Positions 1,044 through 50,724 of a stretch of 64,000 nucleotides of DNA are shown here, in pieces. Positions within the stretch are counted from its first letter, which is position 1. Every line of letters starts with the position of its first letter. This DNA comes from Microcoleus sp. bin48.metabat.b7b8b9.023 (GTDB taxonomy: Bacteria; Cyanobacteriota; Cyanobacteriia; Cyanobacteriales; Microcoleaceae): NCBI RefSeq assembly GCF_013299185.1, contig NZ_JAAFKG010000015.1, positions 1 to 64,000 on the forward strand, given 5' to 3'. The notes beneath the pieces were generated by a model. That model was not told the DNA's origin and made no database searches. It saw only the letters and a program-made list of their open reading frames with translations. A program made the position numbers and the translations under genes.

Positions 1044-3872
1044 TCATTTACCTCCTTTACGTTTCGCAGACTTTTTTGGGAGCGGTTGCTGACTGGTCAT
1101 TTTTGTATACAATTCAAACAGTTTTTCCAATCGTTCTGTATCGTTTTTGAAGCGGCGGCCGATGTAGATTCGTTCCAGGATTTCGTCATTGCGATCGTGC
1201 GCTTCCCTAACCAATGGGAATTCGGTATCCAGCCGATCGCGATCGTACATATCTGCGATCGTGGCGGGGAAATAGTTCTCCCGTGCTAGCAGGATGTCTT
1301 CGGCGCTGCGGGTGAGATCGGCTTTATTGCGATCGGTGAGCGTAGGGACGGGGAAGGTGTTCCAGCCGAGGGTGTTGGAGTAGCGATATCGAGTTTCTAG
1401 CTTGCCGCAGACGGTGGCGATCCAGACTAGGTGGATGCGTGAGGCGATGAGTGCCATGTTCCAGAGTGGGGCATCGTAGAGAGCAAAGCAAAGGTTGCTG
1501 ACTGTAGACCAAGCATCAATTAACCCGACTGGAAGATAATCCCGATTTTCGGACGAAACGGAGGGCATCGAGACTGTCTGCTTTGTTCCGATGTTCATTT
1601 CACGCATTTGGTGAGCACGCGCAGCCATCTTGTTTGTGCCTGCATCTTTGCTTGCAAGGCGCATCGACCGAACGCAGTCAATTCGTCTTCTAATTAATTC
1701 AATAGCTAGCGCGTGCTGTAGCCGATCTCCTGCTATCCAAAGACAATATCGGACAAGGCCACGAATGAACTCGGCAGACCCATAAATACGACGAACCAAT
1801 ATCTGCTTATCTTGATGTGTAAGCGTCAGTTCCCTAAGTTCTTCTGCTGACAGAAGAAGATTGCCACCATCGACTGGCATATTTCCAAAAGACATTTCGT
1901 GTAAACCAGCGATACTATCTTGCTGACTCGTTACAACAATATTCTCTCCTACGGTCAAGTAGGGTGTAATGTTGCCAGCCTCTCTTCCTTCTGTTTCACC
2001 ATTGCGACCTGTATCAAAAAGGTAGCGTTTCTTTTCTTTCGATTGAGAAAGACAAATTATTGAGACAGTTACACCAGCATTATGACTAGCAAGATTTGCC
2101 CATTTAAATGACGTATATGCAAAGCGGATGAGCGAGCCTGTTTCAAAGATTGTAGGCCATAGTATTGGAACGATACGCCCTTGACATATTGAATTTGTAC
2201 TCACAAATGCGGCTTCTGCCACAGTGTGCTGAGCATATTCGGCTGCCTTCATAAACCAGCCACCAACATAGTCAATCTGCTTAGATGAAACCTTATATTG
2301 CTTAAAAACAAGGGCAAGATCTGATTTCTGCTCTTTTGTCTGTGTTTGACTTCCTTTGTATGGTGGATTCCCACAGATATAAGTCTCTCCTCCCTGATTC
2401 TCAAAATCAATCTCCGCCACTTCCCCCATCTCACCAAACAAATCCAAATCCTCCCGCTGCACCTTCACCCCCGTTTCCTTCGATGGGAAGAGACTCAACC
2501 AATCCAACCGCAACGCATTCCCACAAGTAACCCAATTATCATCCTTCAGCGGCAAAAACTCCGCCAGCGCCAACTTTGGCCCCCGATACAACACATCACA
2601 TTGATACTCCGCAATAATCAACGCCAACCGCGCAATCTCACAGGAAAAATGGCGCAATTCAATTCCCCGAAAATTCGTCAGCGGAATCTCAGATTTGCGA
2701 TCCGGTTCCCCCCGCAGACGATTAATTTCCCACTCAATCTCGCGCATCTTCTTATACGCAATCACCAAAAAATTCCCCGAACCACAAGCCGGATCGAACA
2801 CCCGAATTCGCCCTATTCTTTGCCGCAAATTCAACAACTTTCGGGCATTATCTCCTGCCGCTTCTAACTGCGATCGCAAATCATCCAAAAACAGCGGATT
2901 AAGCACTTTGAGGATATTCGGCACACTGGTATAGTGCATCCCCAAAGCACCGCGCTCCTCATCATCCGCCACCGCCTGAATCATCGAGCCGAAAATATCG
3001 GGATTAATCTTTGTCCAATCCAGATTACCAACATGAAGTAAATAAGAACGCGCAATCTTACTAAAACGCGGCACCTCTACCCCACCCGAAAACAGCCCTC
3101 CATTCACATAGGGAAACCGATCTGCCCAACTCCGAATCTGTGCAACTTCTCGCTCTTTCAGCGGCAGACACATCGCCCGAAACAACTCCGACAACACCTC
3201 ATGGGTATTCGACGAATCACTCATTTGCTGGACTGTTTTCGCAAACAAACCTTCACTGTGGAAAATATTCGTATCCTCCGCAAAGAAACAGAAAATCAGT
3301 CGCGCCATGAAGTGATTGAGCGCTTCCCGATTCTCCGATTTATCCCACTCCGGGTTCTCCTTCAACAGCTCCACATAAAGGCGATTCAGACGCGCCGTAG
3401 CCTTGATATCAAAGGCATTCTCCCGGATTTGCCTAACCGTCGTAATCCCCGCCAACGGCAGAAAAAAACCAAAATGATCGTGAAAATCGTGGTAATCGCA
3501 AGCGACTGTCTCCCCATCAGCCAAATTCTCCGCCTCAAAACTTTTGCCATCGGTAGCAAGGATAAACTTAGCCTTATGTCTAGCAGTCGCCGCACTTTCC
3601 CGCAAAGCAGTGAGGGTATTTGTCACCTCACCTTCGGAGCAAACCTTCAAATGAATATTGTTATGCTGAAGTACGCCACCGACATCCGATTTGTTTGAAC
3701 CACCGCTTTTGCTTTTGAGCTTCTTGATGGTAGTTGACTTGTTACCAAAAGCTTCGAGGAAAGCAAAGGGAAACTCTTCCGAGTCAAAGGGCGATTCAGC
3801 AAGCCGGGAAACGGCTTCTTCGATTTCGACTGCATTCATAGTTGTAGTTGTAGGGTGCGTCAGTTGCGACAT
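1044..3872 (-). CDS. MmeI-like class I DNA adenine methyltransferase, nuclease motif absent
   Basis: A 942-residue protein of the MmeI/type IIL family, predicted to methylate adenine N6 in DNA. Methylase motif I is DPACGSG at about 360-366 and motif IV is NPPY at 502-505. Target recognition is expected from the part beyond residue 600. MmeI enzymes carry a D-x(9)-ExK nuclease site near residue 70-85; the matching stretch here (NNIHLKVCSEGE) has no such residues, though the following segment (FILATDGKSFEAENL) keeps the family pattern. The protein may be a methylase only, or a defence module using another effector; no restriction partner is adjacent. The first 11 residues derive from a repeat element, and Met12 (base 3839, MNAVEIEEA) is an attractive alternative start. 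Confidence 0.85.
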   Translation of the reverse strand: MSQLTHPTTTTMNAVEIEEAVSRLAESPFDSEEFPFAFLEAFGNKSTTIKKLKSKSGGSNKSDVGGVLQHNNIHLKVCSEGEVTNTLTALRESAATARHKAKFILATDGKSFEAENLADGETVACDYHDFHDHFGFFLPLAGITTVRQIRENAFDIKATARLNRLYVELLKENPEWDKSENREALNHFMARLIFCFFAEDTNIFHSEGLFAKTVQQMSDSSNTHEVLSELFRAMCLPLKEREVAQIRSWADRFPYVNGGLFSGGVEVPRFSKIARSYLLHVGNLDWTKINPDIFGSMIQAVADDEERGALGMHYTSVPNILKVLNPLFLDDLRSQLEAAGDNARKLLNLRQRIGRIRVFDPACGSGNFLVIAYKKMREIEWEINRLRGEPDRKSEIPLTNFRGIELRHFSCEIARLALIIAEYQCDVLYRGPKLALAEFLPLKDDNWVTCGNALRLDWLSLFPSKETGVKVQREDLDLFGEMGEVAEIDFENQGGETYICGNPPYKGSQTQTKEQKSDLALVFKQYKVSSKQIDYVGGWFMKAAEYAQHTVAEAAFVSTNSICQGRIVPILWPTIFETGSLIRFAYTSFKWANLASHNAGVTVSIICLSQSKEKKRYLFDTGRNGETEGREAGNITPYLTVGENIVVTSQQDSIAGLHEMSFGNMPVDGGNLLLSAEELRELTLTHQDKQILVRRIYGSAEFIRGLVRYCLWIAGDRLQHALAIELIRRRIDCVRSMRLASKDAGTNKMAARAHQMREMNIGTKQTVSMPSVSSENRDYLPVGLIDAWSTVSNLCFALYDAPLWNMALIASRIHLVWIATVCGKLETRYRYSNTLGWNTFPVPTLTDRNKADLTRSAEDILLARENYFPATIADMYDRDRLDTEFPLVREAHDRNDEILERIYIGRRFKNDTERLEKLFELYTKMTSQQPLPKKSAKRKGGK

Positions 3873-29277: not shown

Positions 29278-30171
29278 TTGAATAACCTTACTTGTCTGGA
29301 AATAGAAGTCGCCGAAACACTGTTGAGGTTAGCAATGTTGCTGGGCTTAACACTTTTAATCGCGTTTTTTGTGGCGTCAGAACTAGCATTAGTATCAGCC
29401 GATCGCCATCAAATCAGCCAACTTGCCCAGTTGCGCGATCGCCCAAACGCGAAAACCGCCGAACTCGTCCATCTAGCGCAGAACAACATACCGCATTACC
29501 TGTCGGTGACTCAAACAGGCACAACAGCCGGAAGTCTGCTGTTGGGATGGTTGGGCGAGGGTGCGACTGTACACTGGATCGAGCCCTGGATCGACAAATT
29601 GCCGATCGGGCATTTTCCCGCGATGCTGACGGCGCATTCGATCGCAGTTCCCGTAGCATTCATCTTCGTTACATACATCGAGATAGTATTAGGAGAACTC
29701 ATCCCCAAAGTATTAGCAACCCACGCCCCAGAACGCACAGCTTTGTTACTGATGCCCGCCCTGGAAGTCTGCTCGAAAATACTCTGGCCGCTGCTAGCAG
29801 TTCTCAACGGTACGGTACGGATGCTGACAGGTTGGATTACCAGTAAACAGTCAGAATCGCTGCTACCAGCTTCCGAAGCAACTCTGATTGAAAAAGACGC
29901 TCATTCAGCCCTAATTTCCGGCGTCTGGGAAGTAACAGCAGTTAACGAAAAACTCGGGTTAAACCTGCCAACCAACCAAGCGTACCAAACAATCGCCGGA
30001 TTCGCGATCCATACTTTTGGTAGAATGCCTGCTCAGGGCGATCGATTCTTGTGGGGAGAATTAGAAATAGAAGCAGCAGATGTAGTAGAAGGCAGTTTAG
30101 AAACAGTGCTGCTGCGCCAGGTAACACGCCCTTTGTTTGAGCCACAACATCCAGAACTCGTGTTGAATTAA
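29278..30171 (+). CDS. CNNM/CorC-type transporter-like protein lacking CBS domains
   Basis: A 297-residue member of the HlyC/CorC (CNNM, DUF21) group of magnesium/cobalt efflux-related proteins. The DUF21 membrane domain is complete (LTLLIAFFVASELALVSADR, TAGSLLLGWLGEGATVHWIE, IVLGELIPKVLATHAPERTA). Residues about 190-285 form the C-terminal transporter-associated domain (WEVTAVNEKLGLNLPTNQAY, TIAGFAIHTFGRMPAQGDRF). The paired CBS domains that normally separate these (about 120-130 residues) are absent, so nucleotide sensing should be lost. The start is TTG at 29278; an in-frame ATG lies 19 codons later. Confidence 0.82.
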   Translation: MNNLTCLEIEVAETLLRLAMLLGLTLLIAFFVASELALVSADRHQISQLAQLRDRPNAKTAELVHLAQNNIPHYLSVTQTGTTAGSLLLGWLGEGATVHWIEPWIDKLPIGHFPAMLTAHSIAVPVAFIFVTYIEIVLGELIPKVLATHAPERTALLLMPALEVCSKILWPLLAVLNGTVRMLTGWITSKQSESLLPASEATLIEKDAHSALISGVWEVTAVNEKLGLNLPTNQAYQTIAGFAIHTFGRMPAQGDRFLWGELEIEAADVVEGSLETVLLRQVTRPLFEPQHPELVLN

Positions 30172-30274: not shown

Positions 30275-30478
30275 GTGGATATGCTGAAAACACTTTGGGC
30301 TACTGTTCGACAAGGAAAAATTGAACTGCTAGAGTTATCAGAGTTACCCGAAGGGGCAAAAGTATTAGTAACACTCTTACCTGATGAAGAAACTGAGTTT
30401 TGGCTTCAAGCCAGTCAAACATCACTAGATACAGTTTGGGATAATACTGAGGATGATATCTATGCCCAGTTACTCTAA
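30275..30478 (+). CDS. antitoxin of a MazEF-like pair
   Basis: A 67-residue protein typical of those before PemK/MazF toxins in cyanobacteria. MLKTLWATVRQGKIELLELS followed by ELPEGAKVLVTLLPDEE is the small beta-barrel, DNA-binding part; TEFWLQASQTSLDTVWDNTE is the acidic, toxin-binding tail. It overlaps the toxin start. Confidence 0.78.
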   Translation: MDMLKTLWATVRQGKIELLELSELPEGAKVLVTLLPDEETEFWLQASQTSLDTVWDNTEDDIYAQLL

Positions 30479-30812
30479 AAATGACATAATTTTGGTTAGA
30501 TATCCCTTTTCAAACTTGTCTAGTTCTAAGGTAAGAGTAGCAATTGTTGTGAGTTCGCCACACGTATCTCAAGAGATTATGATTGTGCCATTGACAAGCA
30601 AAACTGCATCCTTAATTGAGGGTGAGTTCATACTCACTGAATGGTCAGCAGCAGGGTTAAATGTGGCTACAGCAGTCAAGCGAGGTTTGCATACAGTACA
30701 TGAAAGCTTAGTTGTAAGGAAGATTGGCATATTAGCAGATTCTGATGCTGAGCGACTGGAGCAATCTCTCCAAGATTGGTTGGGGTTTCAGTGCAACAGC
30801 GACAGTTTTTAA
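30462..30812 (+). CDS. PemK/MazF-family endoribonuclease toxin
   Basis: A MazF-fold mRNA interferase. The start MPSYSKNDIILVRYPFSNLS and VRVAIVVSSPHVSQEIMIVP match the SH3-like barrel; the conserved TSKTAS and VKRGLHTVHESLVVRKIGIL follow. The chosen ATG (30462) overlaps the antitoxin gene by 17 bases; an in-frame start three codons upstream is also open. Length (116) is normal, so the toxin looks intact. Confidence 0.85.
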   Translation: MPSYSKNDIILVRYPFSNLSSSKVRVAIVVSSPHVSQEIMIVPLTSKTASLIEGEFILTEWSAAGLNVATAVKRGLHTVHESLVVRKIGILADSDAERLEQSLQDWLGFQCNSDSF

Positions 30813-31788: not shown

Positions 31789-34700
31789 TTACTTCACAGC
31801 CACCTGAACCGCACCCCCAACAAACTGCTCGTAATCTTCAAACAACCATTCAGGTAAACAACTATCCGCATCCTGAACTTGCAACTGTCCAGCGCGACAA
31901 AACAGCCTCGCCGCCAACAAATAATTCACAGCTTGAGGCATTCCAAACCCTTTACTCAACTCACCCACCAACGCATTCAAAACAGTACGTTCAGTATCAG
32001 TAAGCGGATCGTTAACAAACCCACTCCCGAGCATTGCCTTGTAACCTTTACCCAAATCGCTCCGGTACAAAAGTTCAAGTTGTTCGCCGGAAACCTTCAG
32101 CCACAAGTCAGCAATTTGTTTGCGAATTTCCCGCAAATCTGCTATTACCATTTCCGCCGTCGGTTCGATTTCATAAAGATTCAGGGCAGCAGTTAATTGA
32201 TTGAGAAACTGCGGGAGATAATCTTGGTTGACAATCGTTTGTTGATTGTCCGCGAATGGGATTTCAAAGATTTTTTCGTAATCGTCTATCAACCACTGTG
32301 GCAAGCGGGTGCGAGGGTCGGAAACCCGCATTTTTCCTGGTACAAAGTACAGCATTCCACCCAGCAAAGCATTGATAGCTTGAGGATGCACTAACCCTTT
32401 GCTAATTTCGGTCACTTGCTGCAAAAAGTTTTGTTCGGCTTCCGTCATTGATTGTGCTTGCAAGCCGCAGTTAAGTATTGCTTGATATGCTTTGCGAACT
32501 TCCCCTCGGTAAATATTTTCCAGTTTTTCTGGGGGAACAATCAGCCAAAAATCAGCCAGTTGTTTGCGGATTTGGCGGAGTTCCAAAACTACCGATTCGT
32601 CTGACGGATCGATCCGGTAAAGATTGACGCATCCTAATAGTTGATTTACAAATTGCGGCGATTGAATGTATTGAGCGAGTAAGTCAGAACTTGACTCCTT
32701 CTCGACGGTATCTTCTGTTTCAAAAACTTGTTTGTAATCGCCGATTAACCAGTGTGGCAAGCGGTTGCGAGCGTCGGGAATCCGCATGGTTCCCGGCGGG
32801 AAATACAGCATTGCTGCGAGCAAGGCGTTGACAGCTTTAGGATGCACTAATCCTTTGCTAATCTGCGTTAATTGCTGCAAAAATATTTGTTCGCCTTCCA
32901 TCATCGCTTGATGTTGAAAGTAGCTGTGCAGCAGCATTTGATAGCTTTTTCCGGCAGCACTTTTATAGGTGGCTTCCAGGTTTTCGGTGGGAACATTTAG
33001 CCAGAAATCAGCGATTTGTTTGCGGATTTGGCGGAGTTCGGATATTGCTGAGATGTTTGATGAGTTTCTTTGGTAAAGCTGGACGTTATGCAAGAGTTTC
33101 TCACCCAAGTCTGGCTGTTTGGGAATGCTATTCTGCAAGCTGCGGGAGGCTTCTAGGTGGCTTTTTTGCCAGTTGCTAAAGAGTTCTTGAAATAGTTTTG
33201 CGATCGCCCCTGAGTATGCAACACTGTCAAAACAGGCGGGATTGGCTTGCATTTTTTGCACAATTTCCTGGCGTTTTTGCTGCCGCAGTTGCGGGTTAGT
33301 GGCGAGATTGACGGCTAGCTGAATGTAGGATGCCTCGTCACGGGCGATTAAATCGGGCATCAAGAGCGATCGTACCACTGCTGCTCCCATGCGCGATCGT
33401 AAAGTATCACCATCCCTGACAACAGTCGGCAACCCCACCTCCAGCGGATCCACCAGAGAAGTAGTCCCCGCATAGGGGTAAGAATCCAAATAAACATCAC
33501 CCAACTTCAAAACTTCCTTGACATCCGCACGATTTGGCAAAGCCTTCACCACCCGCAAACGCTGACTCTCAACCCCATACTTCGCCAAAATCCCTTGCAT
33601 ATTATTAACAAAAGCCGCCCCAGGATAATAATTAGTCCAGCTAGGGCCAAAAGGCATTAAAAACAGTATGGAATTAGGAACAGCAGCCAAAATCTTCGCC
33701 CAAGTTTCCCTTAACTCCGGCACCAACTTATACAAATTAGCGCTGGAAATAAACACAACCGATTCCTCAGAAATTCCCAGACTATTTCTAGTCATTTGAA
33801 GATTAGGAGTATAGGGTTCGAGGGTATAGCTAAAACAGCAACCCAAACCGTCAACAGTGGCTAATTCCTCGCGATAGTGCGCGCGTCCCTCAATGGCAGG
33901 TTCCATCAACTTGCCAGCAATATAATAGTCAACGTGGCGCATTCCCGTAGTCACAGGAGAATTAAAACAAGTAGTTTGTACCCGCGCCAATCGATGCTGC
34001 GCCAGCAAACTAATCGGATGAGTGACAGCAGTAATATTCGTAGCAACCAACAGAATATCCAAGTCATCAGCGCGGATAGTCTGAACTTGACTCGGCAAAT
34101 CACTCGGCAATTGCACCAACCTATCCGCGCGACTCTGGCAATACTGTTCTAATTTATTACCATCCAAATTGATAGCATACAAAATAATTTCAAACTGTTC
34201 TCGATTCAGATATTCAAAAGCAGGCAAAGTCGCGAAAGTTTCCGTCATCGCCCCGAAATGCTTAGTCAGAACTCCGACGCGAATTTTCTGTCTGTTTGCA
34301 GGCCTCGCCGGAAAAATGCAATCAATGGCAGCCCCGCGATTTTTCATCGCAAATTCAATAATTTCTGCCCGTTTGGTGTAAACTTGCTTGAGATTTTCGC
34401 TATTGAAATACAAAGGGATAAAGTTAGCGGTTTGAGTGAAAAACCAGGCAATTTCCTGCCAAATTTGTGAATTCTGGTTTTGGAATATATTGCGGTGGAC
34501 GTAACTAACCCATCCCTGAAAGTAGCGGCAATAATTGTCAGCCTCTCCTAGTTCTTGAAAGAGAGTCGGCGCGGCAAACATAAACTTGAGATAGTCGTTG
34601 ACAAACCAATTGGGTATAGCTGCATTTTCATACTTTAGCAATAACTGATCGGCACGACGGTAAAGAGAGGCTGCTAGTAAGTAGCTAACATCTTTTAGAG

Positions 34701-37700
34701 TTTTAATTCCCTGGGATAGATGTGTTTCCAGTTGACCGATTAAACTCTGTTCAGTATCTGTTATTGCTTCATATTTGATTGTACTATTTAGCAGCATTTG
34801 ATGTGCCTTACCTGCCTCACCGGAATAGGCAGTTTCTAGTTTCTCTGCGGGCAGATTCACAAAATAATCGGCAAGTTGTCGGCGCAGTTGGCGGATATGA
34901 GCGAGAGCAACTTGATTGGTTTGGTCTTTTTGATACTCTCCCAGGTGTTGGGGAAGGGAAGCTAAAGACTGTTCGGGTGTATTAACTTGAGCTAATTCAT
35001 CAGCAATCAAGTTACCGTGTTGCTGCAAAACTTTTTCTGACCAACTCACTTCTTCAGGTTTGTAAAGTTGAGAGTGCAGGCGAACAATTGTAGCCCTCAT
35101 CAAGTCTAATTTGGCGCGTTCTGCGGCCATTTTTTGGGTTCTGCTAGAGCCGTCGCCGTGTTGCCTGTAGTAGAGATAAGGCTGAGGCAAACGATCGCCT
35201 AACCAGCCTTTTTCATAGGCAGAAATCCAAAATTCCCAATCTTCGCATCCCAGCTTCATCACTTTTTTCAAGCCGCCTACTTGCTCGTAAATTTCTCTTC
35301 TAAATAAGGAAGTCGCCGGGGCTTGATTGTCTCTCAAAAACTTATTGGGGTCAAAATCGCCGTGGTTGACTAAATCGCAGTTTGCTCCGAAGTGCTGCAC
35401 ATCTGTATAAACAAAACCCACCTCCGGTTTCGCTGCTAAAACTTCAACGCACTCCTCTAGAAATTTGGGATGAATTTTATCATCGGCATCTAGAAATAAA
35501 ACAAACTTTCCTGACGATTGCTGAACACCAATATTTCTGGAATCAGCGGGCCCCGTGTTGGGTTTGTCGATGAGGCGCAGCGCTTTTTGAGGATATAATT
35601 GAATTAAATAATTGGCGAAGTTGCTGGTATCGTCGGTGCTACCGTCGTTGACAATGATGCACTCCCAATTTTGATAGGTTTGATTGACAACACTTTCAAC
35701 AGCTTCTCTGAGTAGATTGGCGTGGTTGTAGCAGGGGATGATGATGCTGACGAGTGCTGTTTCGGGCGTGCGGTAGGGCATGGCGTTTAGCTGTGATACA
35801 GAGATGGCAACGGGGACGGTAGTAGCGGGTTTGATACCTCGGCGGATGATGCCGTATTCATTCCATATCTTAAGCGTTTCTTGTTGCGATCGCCCTGAAC
35901 CATGTTCTAAACCTTGCTCGTTGTGGTAGTAAAGCCCAATTATTTCCGGGATGCGGCACATATTTTCGGTTTTTCCCGCCCGCAACCAAAATTCGTAATC
36001 GCCAGCCGCAGTCAATTCTGCTCGGAAATAGCCGTGTTTTTCGTGTAGCGATTTTCTCCACATTGGCCCAGAACCCACGATGCAGCGTCGTTCCAGTTCC
36101 CCATAGGAAAAGTCCGGCCAATTCCACCGCGTTTGAGCTTGCGTCGCAACCCAGGTATCATTAACAACGTTCGTAATTAATTGATCGCCGTAAACCAGAG
36201 CAGTTTCTGGTTGCGAGTCCAAATAATTAGCCATGATTTCCAAGGCGTCGGGGCGGTGTCTGTCATCAGCGTTAGCATTAGTAATGTATCTGCCGCGCGA
36301 CATCTCGATTCCTCGATTCCAAGCGGCATAAATTGTTTCTCGCTGTGGTATCCGGCAATAAATTATGTTGGGATATTTTGCTTGAAACTCCCGGGCGATA
36401 TCTCCTTCGTTCTGTTCGGAATTGCTGTCAATGACAATGATTTCCAGTTCGCCTTTTTGGTAAATCGTTTGGTTTACCAAGTCTTCCAAACAGCCGCGAA
36501 TAAACTTTTCTGAGTTGTAGGTAGAAACGATCGCAGATACTTTGAAAGCTGACGGGACAGGCTGCGATGTGTCATAATTCGATAATTCGCTCTGTAAGGC
36601 TGGATCGGCTTGCGGTTGAACGGAACGCTCAGCTACTTGAACCAAAACTGAGCTAACAGTTGCAGCCATTTTCGACCAGGAAAACTTCTTAGCTTGCTCT
36701 AGCCCCGCCGCAATTAATGAATTGCGAACAGCAGGCTTCTGTATTTCCCGCAAAGCATTGACAAGCCCGCCGACATCATCGGCATCTACATAAACCGCTG
36801 CTTTTCCTGCTACTTCCGGAATCGAACCGTTTGGACAAGTGATGACTGGACAACCGCAAGCCATAGCCTCGATGACTGGTAACCCAAAGCCTTCATATTT
36901 CGACGGATAAACTAATACCGCAGCACCCGAATAAGCAACTCTCAATTCGCTATCGCTTAGTTGCAGCGTGCGGACAGTGATTCCAGAACAATACAATTGC
37001 AGATCGGGTTCTAATACAGGTTTTCCGCCTGTGCAGACTATATCAAAGTCAAACTTATTGGCAAGTTGAGAAAAGGCTTTGAAGAATAATATCCCATTCT
37101 TGTAACCATGCCAGCCTACCCTCTCGCCTACCAAAAGAAAATAGGGTTTAGCAATGCCGTACTTTGACTTAAAACCTGCGATTTCTTCTCTATCGGCTGG
37201 CGAGAAATTGGCGTCTATTCCGCAGTGCGCTACAGCTACAGAAGCTGAAGATATCTGCGGAAAAACCTTAACTAAATCGCGGGCTGTATTTTCGGAAATG
37301 GCGATGTAGGCTGAGGCGTGACGGATACCGCAATGCTTTTCTCTCCACTCGGAATGAGCAAGATTTTGTCCCATCAACTCTGGAATCATGTCATAGGCCA
37401 TGAATACCGATCGCGTTGACAAAGGCGTTGTATAATAAGTAGAAATAAACAAGTCTGCATTTTCTTCATCGCAGATTTGCTGTAGCATTTGGCGGTCTGC
37501 ATCGGTTTGGCTGTAGTCGTAGCGGGCTACATTCCGGTACTGGATGCCGGGAATTTTGGGGGCGGTTCCCGCTCTGTCAAGAACTAGAATTTGCTTAGCA
37601 AAACCATTTTCTGCCCAGTTTTCTAGCAGCGATGTCCAGACGCGACCAATGCCGGTGCTGTTAAGCTGATAAAATACGCCGTCAATCACAATCTTTTTTA

Positions 37701-38517
37701 AATTTTTAGGAGATAGGGCTGCTGGAGTTCTCATTGATTTGCGGTTCTCTATGTCGGCAATTTTTCTCAAAGCTGCCTCGTAATCCTCTTGGAGTAATGA
37801 GGCTTTTTTCAATTCCGGTTCTTGGCAATATGATAGGCTTTGAAAAAGTTGATGCGGGATTCCCTTTTCTGTCAAGAGGTGCAAAGAATCGCCGTTAGAG
37901 TAAAAATTTAAATTGAATTTTTCGGCAATTATAGACAGTGCCTTGGTGGTATAAATAGAAATGTGCTGACCTTCATCTAGGGCATAGTACCACCATTCGC
38001 TGGGCTGCGGATTGTTGGCTGGCAGCAATCTGGTACTGAATAAAATATTGCGAGAATATTTGAAGATTTTTTCGATCTCCGACAGCGGGTTAACAAAATG
38101 CTCAAATACTTCAAATGCTGTGACTAATTCGTAGGGGTAGCTGCTGTTTGCCTCGGCCTCAAATCCTTGTGCAAATATATTTTGGCAATATTTATCATGC
38201 CATGAAAAATCAAATCCTAAATCTCTCATCATCCGAACAAATACACCGTAGCCGCCCCCGTAGTCTAAAAATTTACCGCGGTGATTAAACAAATTAAAAA
38301 TAATATTATTGGCTGCGGTGGAGAACATCGTGCTTCTCGATAACATTCCCACGTCGCTGCTAGCTATGGCTTCAGAATAAGCCTCCTCAAGCCAGTACGG
38401 TTCCTCGGTTTGAACAAATCCGCAATTTGAGCATTGAAAATACTCAACGTTATATTTTTTTAGTACCGTAGCCGCAGCCAAGCTGTTTGTTGGAGAATCA
38501 CAAATATTGCACTTCAT
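31789..38517 (-). CDS. 2242-residue methyltransferase / multi-glycosyltransferase fusion
   Basis: One uninterrupted gene with at least five enzyme domains. (1) 1-270: zinc site C3, C6, C29, C32, then a SAM methyltransferase (FLDYGGGYGVFVRMM). (2) about 275-635: GT4 (KIVIDGVFYQLNSTGIGRVW; EGFGLPVIEAMACGCPV near 546). (3) about 655-890: GT2 (VSAIVSTYNSEKF; NANADDRHRPD near 750). (4) about 920-1150: second GT2 (VSIIIPCYNHANLLREAVES; FLDADDKIHP). (5) about 1410-1770: OGT/SPINDLY-like GT41 (IRVGVLTKHFGAM; GTTSLVDPLEVGLPTVVRDG). A roughly 110-residue repeat, starting LRxIRKQxADxWL, occurs at about 1205, 1827, 1977 and 2129. Such proteins probably build a whole glycan on a surface protein or lipid carrier. 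No internal stops or frameshift are seen. Confidence 0.88.
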   Translation of the reverse strand: MKCNICDSPTNSLAAATVLKKYNVEYFQCSNCGFVQTEEPYWLEEAYSEAIASSDVGMLSRSTMFSTAANNIIFNLFNHRGKFLDYGGGYGVFVRMMRDLGFDFSWHDKYCQNIFAQGFEAEANSSYPYELVTAFEVFEHFVNPLSEIEKIFKYSRNILFSTRLLPANNPQPSEWWYYALDEGQHISIYTTKALSIIAEKFNLNFYSNGDSLHLLTEKGIPHQLFQSLSYCQEPELKKASLLQEDYEAALRKIADIENRKSMRTPAALSPKNLKKIVIDGVFYQLNSTGIGRVWTSLLENWAENGFAKQILVLDRAGTAPKIPGIQYRNVARYDYSQTDADRQMLQQICDEENADLFISTYYTTPLSTRSVFMAYDMIPELMGQNLAHSEWREKHCGIRHASAYIAISENTARDLVKVFPQISSASVAVAHCGIDANFSPADREEIAGFKSKYGIAKPYFLLVGERVGWHGYKNGILFFKAFSQLANKFDFDIVCTGGKPVLEPDLQLYCSGITVRTLQLSDSELRVAYSGAAVLVYPSKYEGFGLPVIEAMACGCPVITCPNGSIPEVAGKAAVYVDADDVGGLVNALREIQKPAVRNSLIAAGLEQAKKFSWSKMAATVSSVLVQVAERSVQPQADPALQSELSNYDTSQPVPSAFKVSAIVSTYNSEKFIRGCLEDLVNQTIYQKGELEIIVIDSNSEQNEGDIAREFQAKYPNIIYCRIPQRETIYAAWNRGIEMSRGRYITNANADDRHRPDALEIMANYLDSQPETALVYGDQLITNVVNDTWVATQAQTRWNWPDFSYGELERRCIVGSGPMWRKSLHEKHGYFRAELTAAGDYEFWLRAGKTENMCRIPEIIGLYYHNEQGLEHGSGRSQQETLKIWNEYGIIRRGIKPATTVPVAISVSQLNAMPYRTPETALVSIIIPCYNHANLLREAVESVVNQTYQNWECIIVNDGSTDDTSNFANYLIQLYPQKALRLIDKPNTGPADSRNIGVQQSSGKFVLFLDADDKIHPKFLEECVEVLAAKPEVGFVYTDVQHFGANCDLVNHGDFDPNKFLRDNQAPATSLFRREIYEQVGGLKKVMKLGCEDWEFWISAYEKGWLGDRLPQPYLYYRQHGDGSSRTQKMAAERAKLDLMRATIVRLHSQLYKPEEVSWSEKVLQQHGNLIADELAQVNTPEQSLASLPQHLGEYQKDQTNQVALAHIRQLRRQLADYFVNLPAEKLETAYSGEAGKAHQMLLNSTIKYEAITDTEQSLIGQLETHLSQGIKTLKDVSYLLAASLYRRADQLLLKYENAAIPNWFVNDYLKFMFAAPTLFQELGEADNYCRYFQGWVSYVHRNIFQNQNSQIWQEIAWFFTQTANFIPLYFNSENLKQVYTKRAEIIEFAMKNRGAAIDCIFPARPANRQKIRVGVLTKHFGAMTETFATLPAFEYLNREQFEIILYAINLDGNKLEQYCQSRADRLVQLPSDLPSQVQTIRADDLDILLVATNITAVTHPISLLAQHRLARVQTTCFNSPVTTGMRHVDYYIAGKLMEPAIEGRAHYREELATVDGLGCCFSYTLEPYTPNLQMTRNSLGISEESVVFISSANLYKLVPELRETWAKILAAVPNSILFLMPFGPSWTNYYPGAAFVNNMQGILAKYGVESQRLRVVKALPNRADVKEVLKLGDVYLDSYPYAGTTSLVDPLEVGLPTVVRDGDTLRSRMGAAVVRSLLMPDLIARDEASYIQLAVNLATNPQLRQQKRQEIVQKMQANPACFDSVAYSGAIAKLFQELFSNWQKSHLEASRSLQNSIPKQPDLGEKLLHNVQLYQRNSSNISAISELRQIRKQIADFWLNVPTENLEATYKSAAGKSYQMLLHSYFQHQAMMEGEQIFLQQLTQISKGLVHPKAVNALLAAMLYFPPGTMRIPDARNRLPHWLIGDYKQVFETEDTVEKESSSDLLAQYIQSPQFVNQLLGCVNLYRIDPSDESVVLELRQIRKQLADFWLIVPPEKLENIYRGEVRKAYQAILNCGLQAQSMTEAEQNFLQQVTEISKGLVHPQAINALLGGMLYFVPGKMRVSDPRTRLPQWLIDDYEKIFEIPFADNQQTIVNQDYLPQFLNQLTAALNLYEIEPTAEMVIADLREIRKQIADLWLKVSGEQLELLYRSDLGKGYKAMLGSGFVNDPLTDTERTVLNALVGELSKGFGMPQAVNYLLAARLFCRAGQLQVQDADSCLPEWLFEDYEQFVGGAVQVAVK

Positions 38518-39015
38518 TTTTTTTTGATTATCTAAATTTACACAATTATTAAAGTGACTGTCTGTATTGGAATGCCGAATATCTCTCGCTCTTAACTCAA
38601 TTTTTAATCTGGCAAAGTGATGGCAATGGGTAGGCTAGACTGTTTTAATGCTGAGGCTTGAAATCTTCGGACGGTTCCTCAACGGTCGATCGTTGTATAT
38701 GAAGAGTGAATAAACAGGAACATCCTACACCAATGCAGCCCTGACTCAGAGATCTTATCAGGAGTCCGTCCCCTCAAGATTACTTCGACTAAAGGCTTGA
38801 CAATTTTTAATTTATGCTATATGTGACTCCTTAGTAAAACACTCCCATCTCCTGACGGCTTTCAGGGCAGTTCGGTTTCCACCACCTCAGACGAGCGATC
38901 GCCCTTGCCGGGATTCCTCACAACACAAAAATAGGTTACAATTACGTTAAGATTGATGAACATAAATAAAAATTCCCAAATCACAGGGACTAAATAATTA
39001 GGAGGATCGACCTCG
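38518..39015. other. intergenic region upstream of ftsH
   Basis: No gene is seen between the divergent fusion gene and ftsH. TTGACA at 38797-38802 is followed by TATATG at 38818, a 15-base spacer, so it is a weak promoter candidate. The ftsH ribosome-binding site AGGAGG lies just before its GTG start. Confidence 0.4.
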
Positions 39016-40854
39016 GTGAATAAACGGTGGAGAAACGCTGGACTGTACGCACTGCTGGCTATTGTAGTCATTGCCCTAGCCACGGCATTTTTTGACAAAC
39101 AGCCCCCTAGTCGGGAAGTTTGGAAGTACAGCCAATTCATTCAGGAAGTCGAAGGCAACAGAGTAGACAAAATAAATATCAGTTCCGATCGCAGCAAAGC
39201 TCTCGTAACGGCTCAAGACGGCAGCAAGGTAATTGTCAATCTGCCTAACGACCCCGAACTGATTAACATCCTGACCAAAAATAAGGTAGATATTTCAGTT
39301 CTGCCCCAAAACGACGAAGGCTTCTGGGTAAAAGCCCTCAGCAGCCTGTTCTTCCCGATCCTGCTCTTGGTGGGACTGTTTTTCCTGGTGCGGCGCGCCC
39401 AAAACGGGCCCGGCAACCAAGCCATGAACTTCGGCAAATCGAAAGCTAGAGTCCAAATGGAGCCTCAAACTCAGGTGACTTTCGGCGACGTAGCCGGCAT
39501 CGAACAAGCCAAGCTAGAACTCGCTGAAGTCGTGGACTTCCTGAAAAATGCCGATCGCTTCACCGCAGTCGGAGCTAAAATCCCCAAAGGCGTGCTGCTA
39601 GTCGGCCCTCCCGGAACAGGCAAAACCTTGCTCGCTAAAGCAGTCGCTGGAGAAGCTGGCGTTCCTTTCTTCTCGATTTCCGGTTCGGAATTTGTGGAAA
39701 TGTTCGTAGGTGTGGGTGCTTCCCGCGTCCGCGACTTGTTTGAACAAGCTAAAACAAACGCTCCTTGTATCGTATTTATTGATGAAATTGACGCCGTAGG
39801 CCGCCAGCGGGGAGCTGGTTTGGGCGGTGGTAACGACGAACGGGAACAAACCCTGAACCAGTTACTGACCGAAATGGACGGTTTTGAAGGCAATACAGGC
39901 ATCATTTTGATTGCTGCTACTAACCGCCCCGACGTGCTGGATGCTGCCTTGCTGCGCCCAGGCCGTTTCGATCGCCAAGTTGTGGTCGATCGCCCCGATT
40001 TCTCCGGCCGCCTGGAAATTCTTAACGTTCACGCCCGCGGCAAAACCTTGTCGAAAGACGTGGATTTGGAAAAAATCGCCCGCCGCACTCCCGGTTTCAC
40101 CGGTGCTGATTTGGCTAACCTGCTCAATGAAGCAGCAATTTTGGCAGCCCGCCGCAATTTGACCGAAGTCTCGATGGATGAAGTCAACGATGCGATCGAT
40201 CGCGTCCTCGCCGGCCCAGAAAAGAAAGACCGCGTGATGAGCGAAAAGCGCAAAACCTTAGTTGCTTACCACGAAGCCGGTCACGCTTTAGTTGGTGCCC
40301 TGATGCCCGATTATGACCCAGTTCAGAAAATCAGCATTATCCCCCGCGGCCGCGCTGGCGGTTTGACTTGGTTCACACCTAGCGAAGATCGCATGGATTC
40401 TGGCTTGTATTCTCGCTCTTACTTGCAAAATCAAATGGCGGTAGCTTTGGGCGGCCGCATCGCTGAAGAGATTGTCTTCGGCGAGGAAGAAGTCACCACC
40501 GGTGCTTCCAATGACTTGCAACAAGTAGCCAGAGTAGCACGCCAAATGGTAACTCGCTTCGGAATGAGCGATCGGCTAGGCCCTGTAGCTCTCGGTCGCC
40601 AACAAGGGAATATGTTCATGGGTCGCGATATCATGGCCGAACGGGACTTTTCTGAAGAAACCGCAGCTACGATCGATGACGAAGTTCGCTTGTTGGTAGA
40701 AGAAGCTTACCGTCGCGCTAAAGACGTGCTCGTCGGCAACCGCCACGTGCTCAACGCCTTGGCAGATATGCTAGTTGACAAGGAAACTGTCGATGCTGAT
40801 GAATTGCAAAATTTGTTAGCTAACAGCGATGTCAAGATGGCGACAATTGCCTAA
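39016..40854 (+). CDS. ftsH: FtsH ATP-dependent zinc metalloprotease
   Basis: A membrane-anchored AAA+ protease that degrades damaged membrane proteins, in cyanobacteria including photosystem II subunits. Two N-terminal helices (about 8-25 and 108-126) flank a periplasmic or lumenal loop. Walker A GPPGTGKT is at 197-204, Walker [13 protein letters not shown] follows, then the second region of homology [20 protein letters not shown] and the zinc site HEAGH at 419-423. The start is GTG with GGAGG nine bases upstream. The N-terminus ([20 protein letters not shown]) resembles the FtsH3 (slr1604) type of Synechocystis, the copy found with FtsH1 or FtsH2; the subtype call is inference. Confidence 0.96.
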
Positions 40855-49232: not shown

Positions 49233-49409
49233 ACATTGATACTATGTAATCAACAAAAAACCACCGTGTATGACGAATTCCAATACATTGGATACGGACT
49301 CAACTTCACACGCCAAGAAATTCTTGCCTTTTTGGGACAAGTCATGTCAGGAGATATCGAGACAGTTGTGGTCGTCGATCGCTTTGACCTACTCGCGCCC
49401 AGGAGTTGA
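49233..49409 (+). pseudogene. remnant of an IS607-type serine recombinase (tnpA)
   Basis: Read in the frame of base 49266, the DNA encodes VYDEFQYIGYGLNFTRQEIL followed by AFLGQVMSGDIETVVVVDRF. This fits the IS607 TnpA resolvase segment with consensus SGLN-x(2)-R ... G-x-I-x-x-VVV-x-x-x-DRL. The catalytic serine part and the downstream end are gone, and a stop follows at 49407. It is read out of frame by the longer frame that continues into tnpB. Confidence 0.6.
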
Positions 49410-49461
49410 CAGATCCATATTATCAAGTGGATCTGTCAACAGCAAAATTGCTAACTCCTGG
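49399..49461. repeat. nested inverted repeats inside the IS element
   Basis: An inner hairpin GTTGACAGATCC / GGATCTGTCAAC (49405-49416, 49429-49440) lies within an outer pair CCAGGAGTT / AACTCCTGG (49399-49407, 49453-49461). It sits between the tnpA remnant and tnpB. Confidence 0.65.
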
Positions 49462-49500
49462 TTCTGTGCCGAACAGACTTATCTCCCCAACCAGAAATGG

Positions 49501-50724
49501 TTGAAGATATCCTATGAATCATCCAGGCTGACGATTGCGGACTCTACTCCCAGCGTCAAGACAAATCTACTATCCAAAAAGATCCGAGTCTACCCGGAAA
49601 CAAAACTAGCTCAGAAATGGCGGACATGGATAGCCGCAAGCAGATGGTGTTACAATCAAGCAATTGCCATTCTCAAAAATGAAAAAATCGGTAAATATGA
49701 ATTGCGTAAACGCATCATGGATTCAGCGCCTGAATGGGTGTCTCAACAGCCATACAACCCGCGTCAACTAGCAGTATTTCAAGCCTGTGAAGCACACAAA
49801 GCAGCTTGTAAATCCCAAGGTACAGCCAAATTTAGAAGTTGTAAAGCTCCTACTCAAACTATTAGGTTTCAAACAGCAAACTGGAAATCAAACACATTCT
49901 ATCCGCGCGAAACCAAAGGCTTGTCTTTTAAAGCGTCTGAAGCAATAGTGGAGGTAATGCAACACGAACCAACCCTTAGTATTATCAACGATCAATGGTT
50001 TATCTGCTATGCGGTTGACACTGTTGCACCGCCTCCGACTCAATCCGAATTAGCGATTGCCTTAGACCCGGGAATCAGAACATTTATGACAGGATTTGAC
50101 GGTCATAATATACTGAAATTAGGCAAAAGTGATATCGGTCGCATTTATCGGTTAGCCAGACATTTAGACAAGTTAATGTCTCGGCTCGGAAAAAGCAAAG
50201 GTAGTCAGTTTAAGCGGCTGCGGTATCGATCGAGAAAAGTAGCAGCCAGGATTCGTGTTAAGATTAAGAACTTAGTTTCGGAATTGCACAATAAGGCGGC
50301 TAATTACCTAGTTAGCAAGTATAAGTTAATTTTCTTGCCAACATTTGAAACGCAGCAAATGGTAAAAAAGGGTAAGCGAAAACTTGCCACGAAGACAGCT
50401 AGAGCGATGGTAACTTTGAGTCATTATCGTTTTAAACAAACGTTGAAGCATCAAGCATCCAAGTACGGTTGTGTTGTAGTAGACGTGACAGAAGAGTACA
50501 CCAGTAAGACTTGCTCAAAATGCGGTCATATCCATAGTAAGTTGGGCGGCTTAAAAACGTTTAAATGTCCCGAATGCGGACACACTCTGGACAGGGATTT
50601 AAACGGCGCTTTCAATATTCTGTTGAAAGCTTTGAGGGATACCTCCATGTCTGGTAAGCTGCAAGCTTTCCAGATTATGCCATACACAGTAGATTTGGGT
50701 GGATTCCTAGATTTACCGGGTTAA
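49501..50724 (+). CDS. tnpB: TnpB, RNA-guided nuclease-type protein of an IS607-like element
   Basis: A TnpB protein, ancestor type of Cas12. RuvC residues are in place (numbering from the upstream frame at 49270): Asp266 in ALDPGIRTFMTG, Glu360 in LPTFETQQM, Asp443 in DRDLNGAFNIL. The zinc finger is C415, C418, C433, C436. The frame is open from 49270, but its first 45 residues are an out-of-frame reading of the tnpA remnant and the next 20 cross a hairpin, so a start near 49501 (TTG) or a little later is preferred. KTNLLSKKIRVYPETKLAQK is the usual TnpB start region. An omega-RNA is expected from the 3' end. TnpB lies between the two GT4 genes. Confidence 0.82.
   Translation: MKISYESSRLTIADSTPSVKTNLLSKKIRVYPETKLAQKWRTWIAASRWCYNQAIAILKNEKIGKYELRKRIMDSAPEWVSQQPYNPRQLAVFQACEAHKAACKSQGTAKFRSCKAPTQTIRFQTANWKSNTFYPRETKGLSFKASEAIVEVMQHEPTLSIINDQWFICYAVDTVAPPPTQSELAIALDPGIRTFMTGFDGHNILKLGKSDIGRIYRLARHLDKLMSRLGKSKGSQFKRLRYRSRKVAARIRVKIKNLVSELHNKAANYLVSKYKLIFLPTFETQQMVKKGKRKLATKTARAMVTLSHYRFKQTLKHQASKYGCVVVDVTEEYTSKTCSKCGHIHSKLGGLKTFKCPECGHTLDRDLNGAFNILLKALRDTSMSGKLQAFQIMPYTVDLGGFLDLPG

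Follow-up and report, generated by a model that had tools for sequence, protein, structure and literature searches.

What can a cyanobacterium assemble with one polypeptide that carries a methyltransferase (MT) and four glycosyltransferase (GT) domains, and why does the gene for it differ between close relatives? The question is raised by an open reading frame (ORF) on the minus strand at positions 31789..38517 of the window, i.e., the whole analyzed stretch of 64,000 nucleotides (nt) from Microcoleus sp. bin48.metabat.b7b8b9.023 (contig NZ_JAAFKG010000015.1). Its product of 2242 amino-acid residues (aa) contains, from the N terminus onwards, MT, GT4, GT2 and GT2 modules, followed by a GT41 (OGT/SPINDLY-like) catalytic domain and four copies of a ~112-residue helical domain, here called REP, one of which is located ahead of GT41 and three behind it. 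Below, the modules in front of the first REP are called the array, this REP with most of GT41 the core, and the C-terminal ~500 residues the tail. The gene probably encodes a soluble, multi-module enzyme for the assembly of a protein-linked glycan at a recombining, serotype-like locus.

A polymorphic locus with two core alleles

The ORF starts with ATG and constitutes one intact, selected frame rather than an artifact. Four orthologues (96, 91, 89, and 81% identical) span at least residues 1-2239 without a stop codon and share their first ten residues with the window protein, and the ratio of nonsynonymous to synonymous divergence (dN/dS) over the whole ORF is 0.18, 0.20, 0.19, and 0.19, respectively. 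The comparison thus bears out the stop-free frame described in an initial annotation, which was made from the window sequence alone, and shows no frame break in any of the four.

The locus was compared in 27 of 29 genomes of the genus, the window included; the other two (G003 and G024) contain only fragments of the gene. The N-terminal array differs between genomes and is of at least seven kinds. MT-GT4-GT2-GT2, for which the initial annotation had proposed a search in other cyanobacteria, is present in five of these genomes, including the window. FkbM-GT4-GT2-GT2 is found once, and GT2-GT2 is preceded by ~740 residues in three genomes, with FkbM in the one that was scanned, and by ~280 unassigned residues in one. 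Four successive GT2 modules occur in three genomes, GT2-GT4 preceded by ~510 or 750 residues in six, and GT4 alone in seven, one of them at a contig end. In one genome, the array is interrupted by a contig edge.

The core, in turn, exists as two old alleles, present in 10 and 17 genomes. Comparison of residues 1320-1735 in all 351 pairs yields exactly these two clusters, with identities of 0.61-0.67 between and 0.82-0.99 within them, whereas residues 1745-2238 place 25 genomes in a single cluster and two in another. Among pairs with different cores, synonymous divergence (dS) over residues 1311-1560 is saturated in all 170, over residues 1561-1735 in 153, and over REP1 in 129. Further downstream, the median dS of these pairs is 0.57, 0.64, 0.49, and 0.43 for the end of GT41, REP2, REP3, and REP4, compared with 0.58, 0.72, 0.55, and 0.47 in the 181 pairs that share a core. 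The median dS of the flanking genes for FtsH, CorC, and BrkB is 0.37-0.47, in a table grouped by array class in which 42 of the 212 "different" pairs share core 2. In a quick family-wide tree of the core (77 rows), the two cores are separated by a branch with a value of 97 in the Shimodaira-Hasegawa-like approximate likelihood ratio test (SH-aLRT), and the split is therefore taken to be older than the genus.

The variable segment has a boundary on either side. On the left, DNA similarity resumes ~310-410 nt before the start codon (38826..38929; blastn against 25 loci), between the gene and that for FtsH. Of the 21 alleles whose array differs, 20 show this boundary, and a contig edge interrupts the remaining one (G026). 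The right boundary lies within the frame, at codons ~1715-1735 (33313..33375, minus strand), where DNA identity recovers. In comparison with four alleles that have another array as well as the other core, residues 1201-1740 are 42-75% identical and their dS is mostly saturated, whereas residues ~1741 to the end are 67-88% identical with a dS of 0.2-0.8. Beyond these boundaries, the flanks are conserved. The ftsH gene (39016..40854, plus strand; Pfam) flanks the giant gene on this side in 25 of the 27 genomes, and the remaining two stop at contig edges; in some genomes, ORFs of the array or other ORFs intervene. Five loci were compared from outside the genus but within the family, and L074-L077 also have ftsH there, unlike L064. 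On the opposite side, the gene for a CNNM/CorC-domain protein (29278..30171, plus strand; Pfam) is present over more than 80% of its length in 20 of the 27 genomes.

Exchange is not limited to the segment as a whole. The first GT2 module (GT2a) shows a dS of 0.70, 0.64, and 1.30 relative to G001, G014, and G022, compared with 0.16-0.63 for GT4 and the second GT2 module (GT2b); relative to G001, for example, GT4 and GT2b have values of 0.16 and 0.24. This spike points to the in-frame exchange of a single module. Relative to G008, no excess is found (0.14 vs. 0.07 and 0.16). Moreover, the window's array is found on core 2 in P0010 (Microcoleus, 11 member sequences) and in P0007, and P0031 (core 2) and P0023 (core 1) are 98% identical over their first 516 residues. 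Matching arrays on both cores indicate that array and core are exchanged separately; as P0007 derives from an 8.1-kb assembly and is possibly chimeric, the argument rests on P0010 and the P0031/P0023 pair. Silent donor copies of the core, as would be expected for antigenic variation within a strain from silent cassettes, were not found: in the window's own genome, an assembly of 125 contigs, the sequence that comes next after the GT41 core itself is 43% identical to it.

The core alleles are almost unlinked to gyrB. On a tree of this one gene, in which 9 of 24 inner branches are starred, the core label changes 9 times among the 27 genomes, compared with a mean of 8.3-8.4 after shuffling, and 414-425 of 500 shuffles were as low as observed. 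An approximately unbiased (AU) test on the gyrB data rejects a tree that holds core 1 together. The seven array labels change 15 times, with a shuffled mean of 16.3 and 48 of 200 shuffles as low. Four of the eight pairs with a gyrB identity of at least 0.97 have the same core, and in successively lower identity bands the proportions are 12/25, 12/28, 62/130, and 91/160. A clear example is provided by the one-contig genomes G018 and G020, with a gyrB identity of 98.4%. At the DNA level, their tails are 94% but their cores 65% identical, and their arrays differ. The tail, in contrast, follows the species, like FtsH does (Spearman correlation with gyrB distance of 0.59, p 0.001, and 0.55, respectively).

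Capsule and O-antigen switch loci are characterized by conserved flanks, alternative biosynthetic alleles, and incongruence with the genome tree. The present locus shares these features, its allele being largely unrelated to strain relatedness, with the difference that most of the alternative pathway is contained in one frame and that one of the anchors is located inside this frame. The polymorphism could nevertheless be neutral, stemming from a hotspot of recombination or from an ancient mobile segment without diversifying selection on a surface glycan. Consistent with this possibility, dN/dS is low within every module and near or above 1 only in short linkers, so that nothing points to positive selection within an allele. 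Furthermore, at a second locus, where a GT41 gene (ogt) adjoins the pilin gene pilA (see below), the type of array is likewise unrelated to gyrB (Spearman -0.03, 13 genomes), and exchange may therefore be general in the genus. However, scrambling is less marked in the tail, which is encoded by the very same gene, and in FtsH, and the two cores, placed in different deep clades of the quick tree, persist at 10:17 across the genus. Neutrality thus seems rather unlikely.

Modules of the protein and of its relatives

The initial annotation had listed an MT, a GT4, two GT2 and an OGT/SPINDLY-like domain, and a Pfam profile search indeed finds each of these above its curated cut-off. All modules are encoded on the minus strand, and each carries its expected motif, the role of which is taken from established knowledge. 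The class I MT module (residues 1-255; 37753..38517) was assigned by Pfam (PF13489), motifs, and alignment; the Methyltransf_23 match covers residues 64-205, and LDYGGGYG is located at residues 84-91. Two CxxC pairs (residues 3-6 and 29-32) are kept in 11 of 11 aligned sequences, which agrees with the zinc-type MT proposed earlier. As no Pfam zinc-binding model reached E 0.01 in the window protein, the module can only be said to be a candidate for metal binding. The GT4 module (residues 268-635; 36613..37716; PF13692/PF00534) has its strongest matches inside residues 289-592 and contains the motif E542...E550. GT2a (residues 655-905; 35803..36555) and GT2b (residues 918-1170; 35008..35766) both match PF00535, with NADD at residues 749-752 in the former and LDADD within residues 1008-1015 and ED at residues 1092-1093 in the latter.

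The catalytic GT41 domain (residues 1390-1795; 33133..34350) scores 97.7 bits with PF13844 (cut-off 25), and its assignment is corroborated by a profile match to the solved SPINDLY and OGT and by a structure match. K1597 is a Lys in 43 of 44 aligned sequences and aligns with a Lys in 7y4i; it corresponds to the catalytic Lys of SPINDLY and OGT. No TPR family was found at E 0.01 across the 2242 residues, and the place in front of GT41 is occupied by REP1 (residues 1198-1312; 34582..34926), which was delineated with local profiles and is helical according to AlphaFold2. REP2 (residues 1818-1938; 32704..33066), REP3 (residues 1972-2090; 32248..32604), and REP4 (residues 2117-2235; 31813..32169) were also recognized with local profiles. 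None of the 12 Pfam families found in the window protein matches the REP copies, nor does any among the 25 listed of 47 NCBIfam families.

Fusion of such domains, regarded as unusual in the initial annotation, is not rare among the relatives. In the best 120 of 573, a sample biased toward this architecture, REP immediately precedes GT41 in all 120 and follows it in 118. All 120 have at least one GT module N-terminal to REP-GT41, and 102 have at least two assigned modules there. MT, GT4, GT2, and unassigned stretches, with stretch lengths rounded to 100, form 44 distinct N-terminal strings. A stretch of more than 120 residues not assigned by the local profiles is present in 88 of the 120; when such stretches were scanned, FkbM methyltransferases were found in two genomes and nothing recognizable in two others. 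Other relatives join sulfotransferase, CmcI-type, PF01531, or TPR domains with GT41, as judged from their presence in precomputed Pfam data. The window's own genome encodes other giant glycosyltransferase ORFs on other contigs, of 2428, 1526, 1798, 1446, 1482, and 1168 aa (loci L065, L066, L069, L070, L071, and L072), with different module strings.

Whether the modules have to be joined in one chain can be judged from the genomes in which GT4 is the only module of the array. In six of these seven, separate ORFs of 442 and 977-1037 aa are located upstream on the same strand, and the protein downstream is GT4-REP-GT41 followed by three REP copies. The distance from the core gene to the 442-aa ORF is 21-25 nt, stop codon included, in five of the six and 394 nt in G007, and the next ORF follows after 23-305 nt. 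Pfam identified one member of one such pair as GT4 and the other as MT plus GT4. Covalent linkage is therefore not essential. This would also be expected if there was no assembly line at all, i.e., if the modules served different pathways or the chain was processed, with the fusion merely fixing dosage, and the placement of REP2-4 by AlphaFold2 as loosely connected units (predicted template modeling score, pTM, 0.41) could be cited in its favor as well. However, given the shared strand and short gaps, the split ORFs still look like one operon, and fused strings recur in so many arrays among the relatives that the absence of an assembly line is improbable. Thus, the suggestion that the protein acts as a single-chain assembly line had the architecture right and is still the best functional reading, with experimental precedents (see below), but a single chain is not required.

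A candidate route to a protein-linked glycan

In the route proposed here, the REP domains would dock a cytoplasmic or not-yet-exported protein acceptor, and GT41 would attach the first sugar to it. GT2b, GT2a, and GT4 would then extend the glycan in turn, so that the chain is read from the C to the N terminus, and the N-terminal MT would modify or cap the glycan at the end. This order is suggested by the action of the MT at the chain end in WsaE and A064R, as described in the available parts of the reports on these enzymes (PMC2943079; PMC9614988). No membrane segment was found in the protein by hydropathy. By homologous recombination, strains would swap the stretch between the two boundaries, ~310-410 nt ahead of the start codon and codon ~1715-1735, with ftsH on one side and the sequences for the three C-terminal REP domains plus the corC gene on the other as anchors, so that the glycan would differ between close relatives. 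The tail is constant across strains and may dock a constant partner. Escape from phages or grazers could be the selective cause of the diversification.

A protein acceptor is suggested by the nature of GT41. Its characterized relatives OGT, SPINDLY, and HMW1C/NGT are protein glycosyltransferases, with which the window domain shares the GT-B fold, the position of the catalytic Lys, the UDP-site motif, and a helical domain in front. It differs from them in that REP replaces TPR by sequence, in that the OGT-type active-site His is absent, and in that it is fused to three other GTs and an MT.

A second indication comes from pilA. In the window's own genome, the other GT4 that is most identical (68%) is contained in an ORF adjoining pilA and ogt, whilst a GT4-GT2 match of greater length but lower identity (57%) is located on contig C74, which is not among the contigs with pilin-type matches. 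A further 31 loci (L120-L150), each from a different genome, were chosen for their GT4 or MT-GT4 match, with G041 left out and the long-ORF GT4-GT2 matches G000:C74 and G018:C1:265839 not counted; the presence of a GT4 protein in these loci is therefore due to their selection. PilA and a GT41 gene are present in 23 of the 31. Of those without, L128, L133, L147, and L148 are short contigs (3-13 kb) that break off in the gene or close to it; the others are L123, L134, L138, and L145. An MT-GT4 protein is encoded in nine of the 31 loci, six of which are at pilA-ogt, one of these in another family (L132), and three on truncated contigs (L128, L147, and L148); the ORF in L148 is cut off by the contig end and could belong to a giant. 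Seven aligned MT-GT4 proteins are 62-66% identical to residues 1-628 of the window protein. Like the window gene, this locus thus combines GT41 with a variable GT4-containing protein, which may be MT-GT4, GT2-MT-GT4, FkbM-GT4, FkbM-FkbM-GT4, or others, but the genes are separate and adjoin that for a pilin, and REP had no match in the pilA-side GT41 proteins in the scans made. According to a review, PilA glycosylation involves the Ogt whose gene adjoins pilA (PMC12288463). The context supports the notion that the MT-GT4 pair elaborates a protein glycan started by GT41; it does not establish PilA as the substrate of the giant.

Alternatively, GT41 may have been recruited to a carbohydrate acceptor, in which case the product would be an exopolysaccharide, lipopolysaccharide, or glycolipid and the gene a one-gene O-antigen-like locus. 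The GT/MT fusions WsaE and Klebsiella O7 ORF6 act on lipid-linked glycans, according to the available text of the reports (PMC2943079; PMC11231755). Genes that would fit are located on one side of the giant gene (GT4 at 4 kb; HlyD-, FtsX-, and ABC-type genes at 7-10 kb) and on the other (GT4, WecG-like, and weakly Wzy-like genes, the last below the cut-off, at 9-16 kb). Its immediate neighbors, however, are the genes for FtsH, DUF7638, a MazF-like protein, and CorC rather than export or ligase genes. Together with the protein substrates of the GT41 relatives and the six stand-alone MT-GT4 proteins adjoining pilA-ogt, the other three being on truncated contigs, this makes a polysaccharide product unlikely. 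The MazF/PemK-like gene (30453-30812), between the giant and corC, is found at this place in only some genomes.

Several observations nevertheless weigh against a protein-glycan enzyme at a serotype-like locus. The OGT active-site His, which we take to be H498 of human OGT in a DFGNHPTSH-like motif, is replaced by M1424 and is a His in only two of 44 aligned sequences, whereas position 1426 is a Glu in 43 of 44. This replacement across nearly the whole subfamily also fits a carbohydrate acceptor; the sugar and the acceptor may differ from those of OGT, and neither GlcNAc nor Ser/Thr is therefore predicted. Among the neighbors within the window, no acceptor could be recognized near the gene. 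The core allele and PilA are not linked: in 105 pairs of 15 genomes, the mean PilA distance is 0.438 for the same core and 0.413 for different cores. Nor is PilA significantly correlated with the type of array at its own locus (Spearman -0.15, permutation p 0.12, 13 genomes). The core retains a weak link to ancestry, as measured by gyrB (Spearman 0.13, permutation p 0.04), and CorC and BrkB track gyrB at 0.32 and 0.36 only, which indicates that the right flank recombines too.

A protein-glycan assembly enzyme at a serotype-like locus remains the favored interpretation. A more comprehensive version, which is put forward tentatively, as slightly less likely than not, is that of a one-gene serotype system for protein glycans, in which an exchangeable string of modules, one of two ancient cores, and a constant docking tail are dealt nearly independently of ancestry, probably under pressure from phages or grazers, whilst the polymorphic pilA-ogt locus uses the same modules as separate genes.

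Enzymes that combine an MT and GTs in a single chain are already known, including WsaE, A064R, and Klebsiella O7 ORF6, and the window protein, with an MT and at least two GTs in a single frame, is of the same type as the first two. The statements below are limited to the portions of the cited papers that were available. WsaE of Geobacillus stearothermophilus is likewise a soluble chain with an N-terminal MT, which caps the S-layer glycan, and two GT domains (PMC2943079). It differs in having three active domains and in building glycan repeats that are exported and then transferred to protein, and GT41, REP, or allelic exchange are not mentioned. A064R of the chlorovirus PBCV-1 contains two GTs and an MT and, in vitro, builds and methylates the end of a protein-linked glycan (PMC9614988). 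At 638 aa, with domains of ~200 aa, it is much smaller than the window protein, and no mention is made of GT41, REP, or exchangeable arrays. Another chlorovirus protein, A111/114R, has three GT domains (PMC7826918). Klebsiella O7 ORF6 and O12 WbbB resemble the window protein in being large, with a terminating unit at the N terminus and GT modules at the C terminus, but they assemble O-polysaccharide, ORF6 has a coiled-coil region, and GT41 is not mentioned (PMC11231755).

The combination of GT41, REP, and in-frame module exchange at one locus was not found in the literature searched. Among the titles and openings of abstracts that were listed, none describes the protein, its REP domain, or its polymorphic locus; subscription papers were mostly outside this scope. 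In a term search of the main text of a study on Microcoleus speciation, "glycosyl" was absent (PMC10923798). If the proposed route is correct, the diversification of a glycan would be placed inside one frame, at junctions that have been recombined many times in nature, and glycan programming would become testable by module swaps, as in polyketide synthases. To our knowledge, the phage receptors and recognition signals of soil and mat cyanobacteria are little understood; for these organisms, the gene provides a concrete candidate locus, whose two core alleles can be counted and which has several types of array.

Other features of the window and of gyrB

Near the edge of the window, positions 1044-3872 encode an MmeI-type restriction-modification enzyme. 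An IS605-type OrfB/TnpB gene (49270-50724) is located between two GT4 genes, in a region that continues with the weakly Wzy-like and WecG-like genes. Finally, the GyrB frames (L078-L106) are of two kinds within the genus, short ones of 666-668 codons and long ones of 1069-1654 codons, and in the latter the matches are split around an insert. This pattern looks like that of polymorphic inteins, perhaps two in some genes.

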